From Nocardioides oleivorans (lineage in GTDB: Bacteria > Actinomycetota > Actinomycetes > Propionibacteriales > Nocardioidaceae): a DNA stretch of 64,000 bases. The stretch lies in assembly GCF_004137255.1 (NCBI RefSeq), contig NZ_SDWT01000001.1:868001-932000 (forward strand), given 5' to 3'. This document shows positions 27,768-46,975 of the stretch, in pieces; the first letter of the stretch is position 1; every line of letters starts with the position of its first letter. Under the pieces are notes generated by a model that was given only the letters and a program-made list of their open reading frames with translations, ran no database searches and was not told the origin of the DNA. The translations under genes were made by a program, and so were the position numbers.

Positions 27768-27849
27768 GGCGGTCACCGGATATCCGGTGATTGCCCCGCT
27801 TGTCGGCCTGGATCTGGGTGCCGAACCGGGAGTCCCGGGTGCAAAGGTC
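27768..27849 (+). repeat. Dispersed double-palindrome repeat, copy A
   Basis: 82 bp. First module 27768-27795 is a 28-base palindrome centred on GATATC with two end mismatches. The second module begins CTTGTCGGCC and is less symmetrical than in copies C and D; the unit ends GGGTGCAAAGGTC. It fills the space between two converging genes, so it may act as a bidirectional terminator. Confidence 0.85.
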
Positions 27850-27857
27850 CCGTTATG

Positions 27858-29318
27858 TCAGGGGCGGGCGAAGAAGTTCGGCGCCCGCCAGTAGTACATC
27901 GACTCCTGGCTGACGTTCCGACCGGTGCGCGGAGCGTGCACGATCTGGCCGTCGCCGATGTAGAGCGCGACGTGGTAGATCGAGCTCGGGTTGCTCGAGG
28001 AGCCCCAGAAGACGAGGTCGCCCGGCGCGAGCTGGCCGGCAGTGATCGCGGTCGACTGGGTGTACTGCGCGACCGAGTAGTGCGGCAGCGCCTTGCCCGC
28101 CTGGGCCCACGCGACCGAGGTGAGCCCGGAGCAGTCCCAGGCATTCGGACCGGCGGCGCCCCACCTGTACGGCTCCCCGATCTGCGCCTGCGCGAAGGCG
28201 ATGGCGGCGGTCGCGTCGCCCGGCGTGGGGGTGGGCGGCGGAGTCGGGGTCGGAGTCGGAGTCGGCGTCGGAGTCGGCGTCGGAGTCGGCGTCGGAGTCG
28301 GAGTCGGCGTCGGAGTCGGGGTGGGGGTCGGCGTGGGGGTCGGCGTCGGGGTCGGCGTGGGGGTCGGCGTCGGGGTCGGCGTGCTCGTCGGAGTCGGCTT
28401 GCTGGTCGGCGTCGGCTTGCTCGTGGGCGTCGGCGTCGGCGTGGCGGTCAGCTGCTCCTGCTCCGCCTGTTCCTCCGCCTCCTGCTCGGCCTGCGCCTGG
28501 GCCGCGGCTGCGGCCGCGTCGGCTGCCGCCTGCTCGAGAGCCTGCTGCCGCTTCTCGGCCAGGCGCACCGAGATGCCCGTGAGGTCGGCGAGCTCGGCGA
28601 TCAGGTCGGACTTGGTCGCGGCGATCGACTCGGCCAGGGCGCCGGCATCGGACTGGGCTGCGGCCGCGGCGTCGTGGGCGGACTCAGCCTCGGACTCGGC
28701 CGCTGCGGCGCGCTCGCTGGCTCGTGCCGCGGTCGTGGCGGCGACGTCGGCGACGGCGGAGGCTGCGATGAAGGAGTCGTACTGGTTGTCCAGCGCGTCG
28801 GAGGTGTTGCCCATCGTGACCGAGCGGTCGATGAGCGAGCTGATCCCGTCGGACTCGACGACCGCCGCCAGGCCCTGGACCTGCGAGGCCCGCTCGTAGG
28901 ACCGCACGACCGTGTCGGCGTACAGCTCGCGCTGCTCCGCGACGTCCGCACGTGCCGTCTCGGCCGCGCTCTCGGCGTCCTTCGCCTCCTGGCGGGCCTC
29001 CTCGGCGCGCCAGCGTGCGCCGTTCCACGCCTCGGCGGCCTGGGCCGCGGTGTCGCCCGCAGCATTGAGCGCGAGGTTGGCCCTGATCAGGTCGGCACGG
29101 ACGTCGGCGACGTCGCGCTCCTTGTCGGCCGCGTCCTGCCGGGCCTGCTCGACGTCGGCCTCGCTCGGCACGCTGTCATCGTCCTGCGCGAACGCGATGC
29201 CGTGTCCACCGAGCGCGAGCCCGGCGACCAGCACGAGGGCGGTCGCCCAGCGCGACGTCGTACGCCTCGGCGTGGTGGCGCGTGACGGCGTCGGGTCCAG
29301 CGGTGGCACGAAGGGCAC
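27858..29318 (-). CDS. NlpC/P60 peptidoglycan endopeptidase with coiled coil and Thr-Pro linker
   Basis: 486 residues. Order: Arg-rich N-terminus with a signal peptide ending near AFAQ, a long Ala/Glu-rich coiled coil (about 45-275), a Thr-Pro dipeptide linker of about 70 residues, then the NlpC/P60 domain with Cys396 (DCSGL), His449 (YHVALY) and a third polar residue at His461. It resembles RipA-type D,L-endopeptidases whose coiled coil controls the catalytic domain. I choose the GTG at 29318, with AGGGAGC in front; the frame reaches 29381. Secreted cell-wall hydrolase. Repeat copy A lies directly after its stop. Confidence 0.9.
28226..28443 (-). repeat. Hexanucleotide tandem repeat encoding (Thr-Pro)n
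   Basis: About 36 imperfect copies of a 6-base unit (GTCGGX on the plus strand) within the NlpC/P60 gene. It encodes the Thr-Pro linker, with two Ser-Lys interruptions toward the coiled-coil side. Such an array is prone to slippage in multiples of six, which keeps frame but changes linker length. Confidence 0.85.
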
Positions 29319-29452
29319 GGGGGCTCCCTGGTTGGCTTCGGGCCCGCGCGGCTTCCCCACCGCACGGGCAACTCGAGGCACGTTAGTGAACTTTCGTCAC
29401 ACGGGGAACAGTTTTCTCAACTTTTTCACCGTCGCTCGGCGTGTCGGCTTGC

Positions 29453-29487: not shown

Positions 29488-29570
29488 TGGAGTCTCCGGA
29501 TATCCGGTGACCGCCCCCGGTTGTCGGCCCAGACCTGGGTGCCGAACCGGGAGACTCGGGTGCAAAGGTC
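29488..29570 (+). repeat. Dispersed double-palindrome repeat, copy B
   Basis: Same orientation as copy A and close to it in the second half (shares GGGTGCCGAACCGGGAG). The outer 12 bases of the first palindrome have diverged. Together with copy C (opposite orientation) it brackets the AbiEi/DUF559 gene, ending 73 bases before its ATG. Confidence 0.8.
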
Positions 29571-29643
29571 GCCTGCACGAGGGTTCTCCACAGCCTCGAG
29601 AGGACGGGCATACGTCGATCGATCGCCGGGCATCCACCACCGC

Positions 29644-30600
29644 ATGACGGAGCCACAGGTGGACCTCGAGGGTCTGGTGCAGCTGCGCCGCGACCTTCTC
29701 GCGAGCGGACTGACCGACAACCAGATCGACCGGTTGGTGGCCGCCAGGGTGCTCAAGCGCATCCGGTACGGCGCCTACGTGCATCACGACGTGTGGGACC
29801 GGCTGACACCAGAGGACCGGCATCGGTTGCTCGCACGCGCCGTGCGGGCCAGGGCGCACAGCGCGACGGCGCTGACGCACGTCTCCTCGCTCGTCGAGCG
29901 CGGGATCCCGCTGTGGGGCTTCTCGCTGGACGTGGTGCACACGACGCGCACCGGCACCCACCAGCGGGCGGGGCGGCGGCAACCGGACTGGATCCCGCAC
30001 CGCGGGATCCTGGGGACCGAGGACCAGGAGGAGCTGAACGGAGTCGTGGTCAGCACGGCGGCGCGCTCGGCCTTCGAGGCGACGACGCTGGGCAGCGTGG
30101 AGGCCGCACTCGTGGCGGTCAACCGCCTCCTGCACGCGGGCGCGATGACGATCGAGGAGTTCAAGGCGCAGGCGGAGACGCATCGCGACTGGCCGGGGAG
30201 CCTGACCACGAACCTCGTCGTGCACCTCGCCGACCGTCGGCCGGAGTCCGTCGGCGAGGACCGCTTCAGCTATCTGGCGTACCGGCAAGGGCTGGTCAGG
30301 CCCGAGCCGCAGGTCGAGATCTTCGACGAGCAGGGCACGCGGGTGGCGCGGGTGGATTTCGCGTGGCCGGAGCTCGGAGTGTTCGTCGAGTTCGACGGCA
30401 AGGTGAAGTACGAGCGCTACCGCAAGGGGGGCGAGACGCTCGATGAGTTCCTCATGCGCGAGAAGGAGCGCGAGGTGCTGGTGTGCCAGCTCACCGGCTG
30501 GACCTGCATCAGGATCACGTGGGCCGACCTGTCCCGCCCCGAGCTGCTCGCGACCCGGATCCGGAAGGTGATGGCCTCGCGCAACAAGGGCGCCGCGTGA
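29644..30600 (+). CDS. AbiEi-like N-terminal domain plus DUF559 nuclease-like domain
   Basis: 318 residues. Residues about 5-60 form a winged-helix segment like AbiEi-type antitoxins (LVQLRRDLLASGLTDNQIDRL), the middle resembles the AbiEi transcription-factor domain, and about 205-310 is a DUF559/Vsr-like restriction-endonuclease fold. Candidate catalytic residues are Asp238 (RVDF), Glu249, Asp251 and Lys253 (EFDGK). No AbiEii toxin gene is next to it. The ATG at 29644 lacks a ribosome-binding site. The last two bases of its stop codon are the first two bases of repeat copy C, and copy B lies upstream in inverse orientation. Many actinobacteria have several such proteins, function unknown. 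Confidence 0.8.
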   Translation: MTEPQVDLEGLVQLRRDLLASGLTDNQIDRLVAARVLKRIRYGAYVHHDVWDRLTPEDRHRLLARAVRARAHSATALTHVSSLVERGIPLWGFSLDVVHTTRTGTHQRAGRRQPDWIPHRGILGTEDQEELNGVVVSTAARSAFEATTLGSVEAALVAVNRLLHAGAMTIEEFKAQAETHRDWPGSLTTNLVVHLADRRPESVGEDRFSYLAYRQGLVRPEPQVEIFDEQGTRVARVDFAWPELGVFVEFDGKVKYERYRKGGETLDEFLMREKEREVLVCQLTGWTCIRITWADLSRPELLATRIRKVMASRNKGAA

Positions 30601-30680
30601 CCTTTGCACCCGAGTCTCCCGGTTGTCGGCCGAGATCTGGGCCGACAAGCGGGGTGGTCACCGGATATCCGGTGACCGCC
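30599..30680 (-). repeat. Dispersed double-palindrome repeat, copy C
   Basis: 82 bp in the opposite orientation to A and B. Palindrome centred on GATATC at 30653-30680 (one mismatched pair), second palindrome centred on AGATCT at 30623-30648 with TTGTCGGCC/GGCCGACAA arms. It begins within the stop codon of the nuclease-like gene and fills most of the gap to the converging PAP2 gene. Confidence 0.85.
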
Positions 30681-30699: not shown

Positions 30700-31746
30700 T
30701 CACTCGGCGTCGACGGGGACCTGACGGGTCGTGGAGGTGGGGTGGCTCGCCAACCCGTGTCTGTCGAACTTCTGCCCGGAGGCGAGTCCCCCGAGCCAGA
30801 AGGAGAAGAGGGCGATCACGACGCCGGCGAGGTCGTCGGCGATGTAGTGCCAGCCGAAGTAGAGGGTGGCCACGACGGTGATGGAGAAGTTGAGCCAGAA
30901 CACGATCCGGATCAGCTTGTTGCGCAGGGTGTACTGCACCATCAGGGCGACGAGCAGGGTGATCGCGACGTGCAGGGACGCGAACCCGGCCACCGATTGC
31001 ACGGCACCTTCCGCGCCGTCGCGGATCACCCCTTTTCGTCCGTAGAACAACGCCTCCATCAACGCGCTCGACCCGGTGTCGGGGAGGTCGGCGTAGAGGT
31101 AGCTGTACTGGAAGCCGGGGCCGAGGGTCGGCAGCGCGTAGTAGGACGCGGTGCCCAGGGTCCAGGCCAGGCACTGCGAGGTGGCGAACCAGTAGCCGAA
31201 GGTGATGTTGCGCGACCACACCAGCCAGGCGGCCAGCGCGAGCGGCACCAGCGGCAGGAACCAGAGGTAGATCGTCGACAGGAAGTGGGACAGGATCCCG
31301 GTGCCGAAGATCGTGTGCAGGATCGTCGCCGGCTCGTGGCCGAACATCAGCGCCCGGTCGATCAGGTGCAGCTCACGGTCGTACTTGTCCTCGCCCATGA
31401 TGAAGGGCAGGAACGACTTGAGGTTCCGGTAGCAGACGTAGGTGATGTAGAAGCTCACCAGGCCGAGCACCACGAGGATGATCCGCTCGCGGTCCCAGTG
31501 GGTGCGGATCCGCTCCTTGACGATGTCGGGCATCAGCGCCGGCTTCATCCGGGAGAACCACAGCGTCCGCGGCAGCAGGTCGAGCAGGAAGGCGCCGAGC
31601 ACGAGCAGCGGCAGGCGCAGCCACGACGGGCCGAGGAATCCCTCGGGGTCGACGAGCGGCCGGTTCAGCGTGATCGCGGCCGTGACAGCCAGCGCGCCCA
31701 TGATGCCGGCGACGCCGACGAGCAGGGCATAGGCGGGTCTGTACAC
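30700..31746 (-). CDS. PAP2-superfamily membrane protein (inositolphosphotransferase-like)
   Basis: 348 residues with about eight transmembrane helices. Conserved PAP2/Aur1-like residues appear in GFASLHVAITLLVALM and FGWHYIADDLAG, the second containing the active-site His and Asp. Similar proteins act as lipid phosphatases or transfer phosphoinositol or phospho-sugars between lipids. It is in the membrane with the catalytic face probably outside. The GTG at 31746 has a perfect TAGACT box ending 9 bases upstream. Substrate unknown. Confidence 0.8.
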   Translation of the reverse strand: MYRPAYALLVGVAGIMGALAVTAAITLNRPLVDPEGFLGPSWLRLPLLVLGAFLLDLLPRTLWFSRMKPALMPDIVKERIRTHWDRERIILVVLGLVSFYITYVCYRNLKSFLPFIMGEDKYDRELHLIDRALMFGHEPATILHTIFGTGILSHFLSTIYLWFLPLVPLALAAWLVWSRNITFGYWFATSQCLAWTLGTASYYALPTLGPGFQYSYLYADLPDTGSSALMEALFYGRKGVIRDGAEGAVQSVAGFASLHVAITLLVALMVQYTLRNKLIRIVFWLNFSITVVATLYFGWHYIADDLAGVVIALFSFWLGGLASGQKFDRHGLASHPTSTTRQVPVDAE

Positions 31747-46895: not shown

Positions 46896-46975
46896 ACTTC
46901 GCACCCGAGTCTCCCGCTTGTCGGCCGAGATCTGGGCCGACAAGCGGGGCGGTCACCGGATATCCGGTGACCGCC
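46896..46975 (-). repeat. Dispersed double-palindrome repeat, copy D
   Basis: 80 bp, same orientation as copy C. The GATATC-centred module (46948-46975) is a perfect 28-base palindrome, and the AGATCT-centred one (46917-46944) has a single mismatched pair. Situated between two same-strand genes, 3' of 46990-47418 and 5' of the SurA-N lipoprotein, so it could end one transcript or influence the next. About 16 kb from copy C. Confidence 0.85.

Follow-up and report, generated by a model that had tools for sequence, protein, structure and literature searches.

The unit at 29488-30680 and its repeats

The window, by which we mean the whole stretch of 64,000 nucleotides that was analysed, corresponds to C1:868001-932000 of a genome (G000) of 4.48 Mb in nine contigs. 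It contains a nuclease gene placed between two inverted copies of a repeat, here called family 1, and two more copies of the repeat are located outside this unit:

29488..30680, + strand: the whole IS-sized unit, a nuclease gene between inverted terminal repeats; its edges in relatives are where homology ends
29488..29570, + strand: upstream terminal repeat (copy B), with the outer palindrome TCTCCGGATATCCGGTGA at 29493-29510, an inner imperfect palindrome and a tail
29584..29593, + strand: DnaA-box-like motif TTCTCCACAG, between the upstream repeat and the gene
29644..30600, + strand: nuclease gene, 318 amino acids, with an AbiEi-like part (residues ~9-197) and a Vsr-like/EDxHD nuclease domain (residues ~198-315)
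30599..30680, − strand: downstream terminal repeat (copy C), with the outer palindrome TCACCGGATATCCGGTGA at 30658-30675
27768..27849, + strand: dispersed repeat copy A, outside the unit
46897..46975, − strand: dispersed repeat copy L020

The family-1 copies consist of an outer palindrome, an imperfect inner one with AGATCT at its centre, and a gene-side tail. The outer palindrome TCACCGGATATCCGGTGA is perfect or near-perfect, with copy B deviating by one base. In the alignment of copies B and C, 70 of the 80 columns are identical, seven are mismatches and three are single-base gaps, and the final two bases of the TGA stop codon (30598-30600) are common to copy C. A preliminary description, made from the sequence alone, had reported that copies B and C face each other around one gene at 29488-30680 and that the stop codon overlaps copy C by two bases, both of which held; its estimate of differences at about 10 of 69 bases is close to the alignment. 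The palindrome CACCGGATATCCGGTGA, with up to three mismatches allowed, was found at four places in the window (eight rows when both strands are counted), compared to a mean of 0.22 rows in shuffled sequence, and these copies are not due to chance. No Rfam match was obtained in the window between 27500 and 31000. Only one of 16 pairs in the inner hairpin showed a compensated change, so that an RNA or single-strand structure is unsupported beyond the palindromes themselves. In the same part of the window, a tandem GTCGGC-type repeat at 28172-28465 encodes a long Thr-Pro-rich stretch in a minus-strand ORF (27858-29381).

An AbiEi-like protein with a Vsr/EDxHD-like nuclease domain

The structure of the 318-residue protein was predicted with AlphaFold2 (mean pLDDT 92.4). 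Residues 9-197 resemble AbiEi (6y8q; Foldseek E 8e-5, Z 10.6, rmsd 6.4, 172 aligned residues) and Rv2827c (1zel; Z 8.3, rmsd 4.6). A further resemblance, to nucleotidyltransferase toxins of the MenT type (8an5, Z 8.9), covers residues 54-200, and the model allows the possibility that the second AbiEi-like domain shares the MenT-type fold. Residues 198-315 are most similar to NGO0050 (3hrl; Z 11.8, rmsd 2.3, 91 aligned residues) and to the homing endonuclease domain of I-Bth0305I (Z 11.7, rmsd 2.4, 97 aligned residues), followed by Vsr (Z 9.8, 107 aligned residues). The preliminary description had labelled the protein as DUF559-like, which failed, since no Pfam DUF559 row was obtained for the protein (P0001; E<=1) or for 31 relatives (E<=0.1); the likeness is structural and is to the Vsr-like/EDxHD nucleases. 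AbiEi_4 was identified in 25 of the 31 relatives, and PADLOC gave a weak AbiEi match (E 5e-4).

In an alignment of 31 sequences, Glu205, Asp238, Glu249 and Asp251 are invariant and Lys255 is conserved. Three of the four candidate residues named in the preliminary description (Asp238, Glu249 and Asp251) were thereby confirmed; the fourth, Lys253, is not invariant, and Lys255 takes its place in the list as the conserved lysine, with Glu205 as an addition. These five residues are retained in 197-199 of the 199 rows of relatives described below, although no superposition on the EDxHD residues was made. The retention of the active-site residues suggests that a working nuclease is probably under selection, the activity itself being inferred. 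There is no H-x-H triplet anywhere in the 318-residue sequence, and the absence of an HUH enzyme rests on this missing motif rather than on the fold-search listing. The protein had no match among 72,556 plasmid records at E 1e-10 or among 50,697 phage records at E 1e-6, and two weak viral matches extend over only about 75 residues. No AbiEii toxin gene is located downstream of the gene in the window, where the gene predicted next, at 30700-31746 and beyond the repeat, has the opposite orientation (minus strand). The AbiEi protein of S. agalactiae binds inverted repeats and autoregulates its own expression (PMC3985639), and I-Bth0305I forms a dimer on a target almost 60 bp in length (PMC3943268). 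Taken together, this makes a dimer of the AbiEi-nuclease on an 80-bp palindromic end plausible, as an inference.

Flanking repeat pairs in relatives

Relatives of the protein were searched for in 77 genomes of the order, in 246 genomes of the class and in a public genome collection. A locus was scored as paired if an inverted repeat between the 500 bp before and the 500 bp after the gene reached a Smith-Waterman score of at least 42 (+2/-3/-5). Three sets were compared. The named set comprises all 80 Nocardioides/Marmoricola loci that were returned out of at least 495 relatives confirmed by a pattern scan. The order set comprises 91 of 110 matches, the omitted 19 being two at contig edges and 17 low-scoring matches outside the genus, and the class-level set comprises 28 of 30 returned loci, with L198 and L202 omitted because they had been counted already. 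The sets overlap in organisms, so that the 199 rows represent 189 distinct genes.

A flanking pair was found in 77 of the 80 named loci, the exceptions being L249, L250 and L277. Among the controls, a pair was present at only 2 of 438 shifted positions and, for the other genes of 700-1300 bp that these loci contain, in 2 of 371 cases. It was also found in 80 of the 91 gene copies within the order (11 had no detectable pair) and in 26 of the 28 class-level loci, all except L204 and L218; 17 of the 28 were from other genera or families, and 16 of these were paired. When upstream and downstream flanks from different order-level loci were combined, the score had a median of 24 and a 95th percentile of 36, and 11 of 546 such mismatched pairs reached 42, with the highest at 246 and 357. 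Counted over distinct genes, 172 of 189 have a flanking pair. More distant relatives, at 28-35% identity and in genomes without a close copy, reached a score of 42 in 9 of 12 cases and 50 in 5 of 12; here the gene starts are uncertain and the search region was wider.

As a control for orientation, the flanks were also compared in direct order, which gave median scores of 52-56, against 84-109 for the inverted order. The good direct scores are explained by the unit ends being themselves palindromic or symmetrical. The inverted order scored better in 76 of 77 named pairs and in 24 of 26 class-level pairs. Among the order-level pairs, which number 79 rather than 80 in this control because the gene end was moved to the stop codon, it was better in 64, equal in two and worse in 13. 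With the direct order as good or better in 15 of 79, the term inverted is less certain for that set. The outer end contains a perfect stem of at least 8 bp in 56 of the 77 paired named loci, compared to 0.4% in shuffled sequences, and the named loci have 73 distinct best palindromes. The palindromicity is thus retained while the sequence of the palindrome diverges. The gene flanks of L195 (G061) have a different style of end, with terminal repeats that contain several tandem CGCCTGTCTT-like words.

A DnaA-box-like motif upstream of the gene

The word TCCACA is present within 200 bp upstream of the gene in 77 of the 80 named loci, usually at -55 to -139 and in some cases twice, and in all 28 class-level loci. 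It was found at 10 of 438 shifted positions and upstream of 4 of 371 other genes. In the order set, the longer form YTNTCCACA occurs in the forward orientation in 52 of 91 loci and in reverse in four. The sole YTNTCCACAG in the window is TTCTCCACAG; about 0.5 would be expected by chance, and it is only the conservation in relatives that gives the motif in the window any weight. In M. tuberculosis and S. coelicolor, the DnaA box with high affinity has the sequence TTGTCCACA (PMC4285127, Table 1), from which the motif in the window, TTCTCCACA, differs by one base. A role for this DnaA-box-like motif, including any binding by DnaA, is inferred.

Each enzyme is associated with its own repeat

A paralogue on contig C2, with 45% identity to the protein, is flanked by a different repeat (family 2), and another genome, G008, contains five gene copies with five different repeat pairs. 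The family-1 repeat was found in only 6 of 77 genomes, namely G000, four genomes with an orthologue of 67-79% identity, and G017, which has no close orthologue and in which the match is limited to the palindrome. Across the 80 units of the named set, the similarity of the repeats climbs with the identity of the proteins. Pairs with more than 0.4 of the maximum repeat similarity amount to 0-2% below 60% protein identity, 13% at 60-65%, 31% at 65-70%, 53% at 70-75%, and 20 of 20 at 75% or above. The repeats are thus lineage-specific and diverge together with the enzyme.

The two ends within a unit are more similar (median 0.82) than same-side ends across related species (median 0.70, 136 pairs), showing concerted evolution of the ends. 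The pairs in this comparison are not independent, and the three loci without a pair were omitted, which slightly favours the within-unit similarity. The suggestion in the preliminary description that relatives might be flanked by the same repeat failed in this form: they are flanked in 172 of 189 cases, but each lineage has its own repeat. It had also named two outcomes that would refute an association of repeat and gene. Relatives without flanks are not the rule (77/80, 80/91 and 26/28 paired), and independent evolution of repeat and gene is contradicted by the repeat similarity, which tracks protein identity.

The repeats are dispersed in intergenic regions

All five repeats that were searched for in their own genomes are dispersed. 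For family 1, 30 places in the genome agree with copy A at 59 or more of its 82 bases, four in the window and 26 outside it, and 37 palindromes with at most one mismatch were counted genome-wide, compared to none for the reversed control pattern. The family-2 repeat of the paralogue has at least 12 places besides its gene. The repeat of G026 has 24 full places including the two at the gene, which leaves 22 elsewhere in that genome, and only partial matches of up to 69 of 90 bases were found in 2 of 13 other genomes. An AT-rich repeat in G057 and G074, two genomes of another bacterial family, gave 79 and 34 rows, respectively, with both strands counted, and weaker rows in 4 of 10 other genomes. 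The repeat of G165, a genome of a further bacterial family, gave 41 rows including its own two, and thus at least 39 others. The DNA searches scored only part of the candidates (40 of 58 for family 1, 11 per genome across the family-1 search of 77 genomes, 40 of 47 for G026 and 40 of 106 for G165), so these copy numbers are lower bounds.

Copies from two repeat families were compared with predicted genes, and 64 of 67 proved to be extragenic, meaning that no more than half of the copy is overlapped by a gene predicted by a simple codon-usage gene finder; 61 of the 67 are overlapped by a quarter or less. In comparison, of 302 random positions, 97% have more than half of their length within predicted genes. 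The count omits L001, L010 and L012, three copies that are located at the unit or next to it, and 40 of the copies are family-2 copies from two related genomes with partly identical sites. Convergent genes surround 35 of the 67 dispersed copies and divergent genes 4, with median gaps of 21-36 bp. Some copies have the form palindrome-hairpin-palindrome, a short derivative with both ends. Both the dispersal and the extragenic location of the repeats are shown by these data.

One genome, G045, contains family-2 repeats (17 BLAST rows, e.g. L398-L406) but only relatives of the nuclease with at most 30% identity. These may be orphan repeats, perhaps left after the loss of the gene. In a search for an excision scar in G045, none of nine family-2 copy loci was found at a gene site of the named set.

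Unit boundaries and rare movement of the unit

Flanking sequence assigned 62 of 82 loci to 11 shared sites. Placed on the protein tree, the sites require 11 changes, where the least possible number is 10 and the shuffled mean is 40.6. Since the sites follow the protein tree, the unit is mostly inherited in place and hardly moves. It follows that the repeats, and not the gene, are dispersed. The possibility that units had been inverted in place at one site was rejected, with no inverted syntenic pairs after the loci had been oriented to the match strand. Site cluster S00, with 18 loci including L032, carries proteins that are apart in the tree (4 changes, 2 of them forced by starred branches), which would fit reuse or re-occupation of the site.

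Among 121 pairs with at least 60% identity, 48 are non-syntenic in the sense that no shared flank was found. Twenty of these were taken from the top of the list, after repeats of L235 and other loci had been thinned. Homology never extended more than 100 bp beyond the outer palindromes; both edges were within 25 bp in six pairs, homology continued 45 bp past one edge in one pair, and it faded inside the unit on one or both sides in 13. The units L251 and L260, which are 81% identical and come from one MAG, have 1183 bp in common with edges at +0/-1 bp from the palindromes, with the caution that the MAG may be mixed. The edges of L266 and L271, from records of one strain, are at +1/-1. The unit is a discrete IS-sized element with terminal inverted repeats that is present at different sites, and its boundaries are established.

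Two checks proposed in the preliminary description concerned target-site duplications and empty sites. No target-site duplications were found above chance, as judged from repeat copies only and not from whole units: shared words of at least 6 bp were present at 27% of 30 copies (16% in the null) and at 18% of 40 copies (19% in the null). Empty sites were sought by comparing G012 and G022, in which the aligned stretches are mostly 87-94% identical. Twelve of 20 copies in G012 had a partner among the 20 sampled in G022, with a weak second match of L308 left out, and 11 of 16 unmatched loci of either genome had matches in stretches fetched from the other. Five loci were aligned base by base, three of the 11 and two that had already been matched. 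One pair, L347/L366, is a clean case of a full versus an absent repeat, the direction of which is unknown. At another site, G022 has palindrome-hairpin-palindrome where G012 has a bare palindrome, and at one site G012 has a full copy where G022 has a bare palindrome. These differences are compatible with loss, gain or homing, and the choice between them is undecided.

Comparison with known systems

The arrangement is most similar to RAYT/TnpA_REP with its REP/REPIN repeats (REPtrons, TIRtrons), in which a single-copy and mostly vertically inherited gene is flanked by a dispersed, co-diverging, extragenic palindromic repeat (PMC8266576, PMC8049555, PMC3733652). It differs in that the enzyme is AbiEi + Vsr/EDxHD-like and lacks the HUH motif, and in its repeats of about 80 bp with an outer palindrome and the conserved DnaA-box-like motif before the gene. 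A GTAG/CTAC tag is absent from the consensus of 27 family-1 copies, and GTAG/CTAC lies within 10 bp of an end of the upstream repeat in only 5 of 77 named units. The system would be RAYT-REP-like in its working but not a member of that group, because the enzyme is unrelated.

The EDxHD homing endonucleases (I-Bth0305I) and Vsr share the fold of the catalytic domain, in which acidic residues that may correspond to the EDxHD positions are conserved among the relatives of the nuclease. The nuclease here differs in being fused to an AbiEi-like part and in lying between dispersed palindromes of its own. Type IV AbiE AbiEi antitoxins and Rv2827c share the fold of residues 9-197, and AbiEi binds inverted repeats; however, the unit lacks an AbiEii partner gene and has the extra nuclease domain. 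IS elements with MITEs are similar in having a unit of about 1.2 kb, terminal inverted repeats and short repeat-only derivatives, whereas the nuclease is the only transposase-type candidate here and no target-site duplication was found. The match to TnsA of Tn7 is weak (Z 6.3) and may mean only a common arrangement of the fold. TnsA works with a DDE partner, TnsB.

Searches of the open-access literature, not including ISfinder or subscription journals, found no link of AbiEi, DUF559 or Vsr-like genes to REP-like repeats. Novelty is judged on the enzyme and on these searches. The arrangement itself has an analogue in RAYT; if the arrangement is weighed over the enzyme, the system is a variation on the RAYT plan. 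The plan that the unit has in common with most of its tested relatives, each with different palindromes, probably indicates a mobile-DNA system of a kind not recognised before. HUH enzymes are known to disperse REP-like repeats, and the same arrangement is here found on an unrelated nuclease in actinobacteria.

A proposed repeat-associated nuclease system and the alternatives to it

We consider it likely, with a probability of roughly 0.72, that the unit serves as the "master" copy in a selfish or domesticated system of two parts, which resembles RAYT-REP but is built on a hydrolytic nuclease rather than a transposase. In this view, the single-copy AbiEi-Vsr-like nuclease would recognise the palindromic repeats that bound its own gene through the AbiEi-type DNA-binding part, probably as a dimer, and would also act on the other copies of these repeats along the chromosome. 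Short derivatives that consist of the repeat alone (palindrome-hairpin-tail or palindrome-hairpin-palindrome) would be spread and homogenised between genes like REPs and REPINs, and the whole unit would move only rarely. The likeliest scheme would be cutting at or near the palindromes, followed by joining by the host or gene conversion. A Vsr-like nuclease alone cannot perform strand transfer; it hydrolyses and does not join strands. With a catalytic domain that is hydrolytic and not a strand-transferase, the joining would most likely fall to the repair systems of the host (recombination or end joining), and this would fit the lack of target-site duplications.

By analogy, the co-divergence, the concerted ends, the dispersal and the edges of the unit are what a RAYT-like system would show. 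The guess in the preliminary description of a RAYT-like repeat-associated nuclease is supported to this extent, while cleavage and mobilisation remain inferred. There are no binding or cleavage data, so binding and cleavage of the repeats, like the direction and chemistry of movement, are inferred. Speaking against the main reading are the repeats in G045 without a close gene, the family-1 palindromes in G017 without a close orthologue, the loci in which no flanking pair was detected, the absence of target-site duplications above chance, the close fit of the sites to the protein tree, and the finding of only one clean presence/absence of a repeat and of no directed insertion event.

The repeats could alternatively be bidirectional terminators or AbiEi-type operators, with the dispersed copies selected by the host and nothing mobile. 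The excess of convergent over divergent neighbours (35 and 4 of 67) with short gaps is in favour of this reading, as is the autoregulation of the S. agalactiae AbiEi via inverted repeats (PMC3985639). However, the flanks copy each other over tens of bases, usually about 80, in 77 of 80 loci, the repeat sequence is lineage-specific and common to the dispersed copies, and in the most closely related units at different sites the homology runs from one outer palindrome to the other. None of this is needed by terminators or operators, and we regard this explanation as unlikely. Less likely still is that the gene is a relic of a defence or toxin-antitoxin system, a type IV AbiE-like antitoxin or a restriction-like nuclease insulated by repeats by chance. 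The AbiEi fold, the match of residues 54-200 to MenT-type toxins, the weak PADLOC match and the presence of AbiEi_4 in most of the relatives are consistent with it. It is opposed by the lack of a following AbiEii-like toxin gene, by the nuclease residues being retained in nearly all rows, and by the absence of plasmid and phage matches at the thresholds used above, and it leaves the dispersed cognate repeats unexplained.

A homing-type system remains possible, in which the palindrome would be the recognition and cleavage site and the element would spread by break repair rather than transposition, through gene conversion among repeat copies and into alleles with only the bare palindrome. The catalytic fold matches I-Bth0305I (Z 11.7) about as closely as it does any solved structure (3hrl, Z 11.8). 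The sites in G012 and G022 where a full or double element faces a bare palindrome, the homogenised ends within the unit, and the 18-locus site with proteins that are apart in the tree (4 changes, 2 of them forced by the starred branches) also fit. However, homing needs a cognate empty allele, whereas the many family-1 copies at separate intergenic locations need new sites, and the two solo/full pairs in G012 and G022 may equally be deletions.

A bolder version of the RAYT-like reading is that the unit belongs to a class-wide, independently evolved counterpart of RAYT-REPIN, in which a Vsr/EDxHD nuclease with an AbiEi part would spread palindromes without a transposase, by cutting them and leaving the joining to the host, under a DnaA box that would couple expression to replication. 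We offer this tentatively, with the odds leaning against it. If true, many of the orphan AbiEi-nuclease genes in actinobacteria would be the engines of lineage-specific repeat populations. The main, RAYT-like reading would itself assign a function to AbiEi-nuclease genes that are so far unexplained and form a large set (at least 495 relatives, with the plan met in 172 of 189), and would explain the lineage-specific palindromic repeats of the genomes in question. It would also provide many natural protein-repeat pairs, five of them in G008, in which the spread of DNA by a nuclease with no transposase could be studied.

Placement of repeat copies along the contigs

All 37 family-1 palindromes are located within C1:895773-3173289, whereas the initial 895 kb of C1 and the contigs C2-C9 (~1.18 Mb) have none. 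A bias related to the replication origin was rejected as the cause of this one-sided distribution, since dnaA, at C1:1392093, is inside the repeat-bearing stretch, and the distribution is unexplained. In L266, two more copies of the repeat of its own unit are located next to each other (L266:1147-1216 and 1304-1359), about 8.5 kb from the unit.
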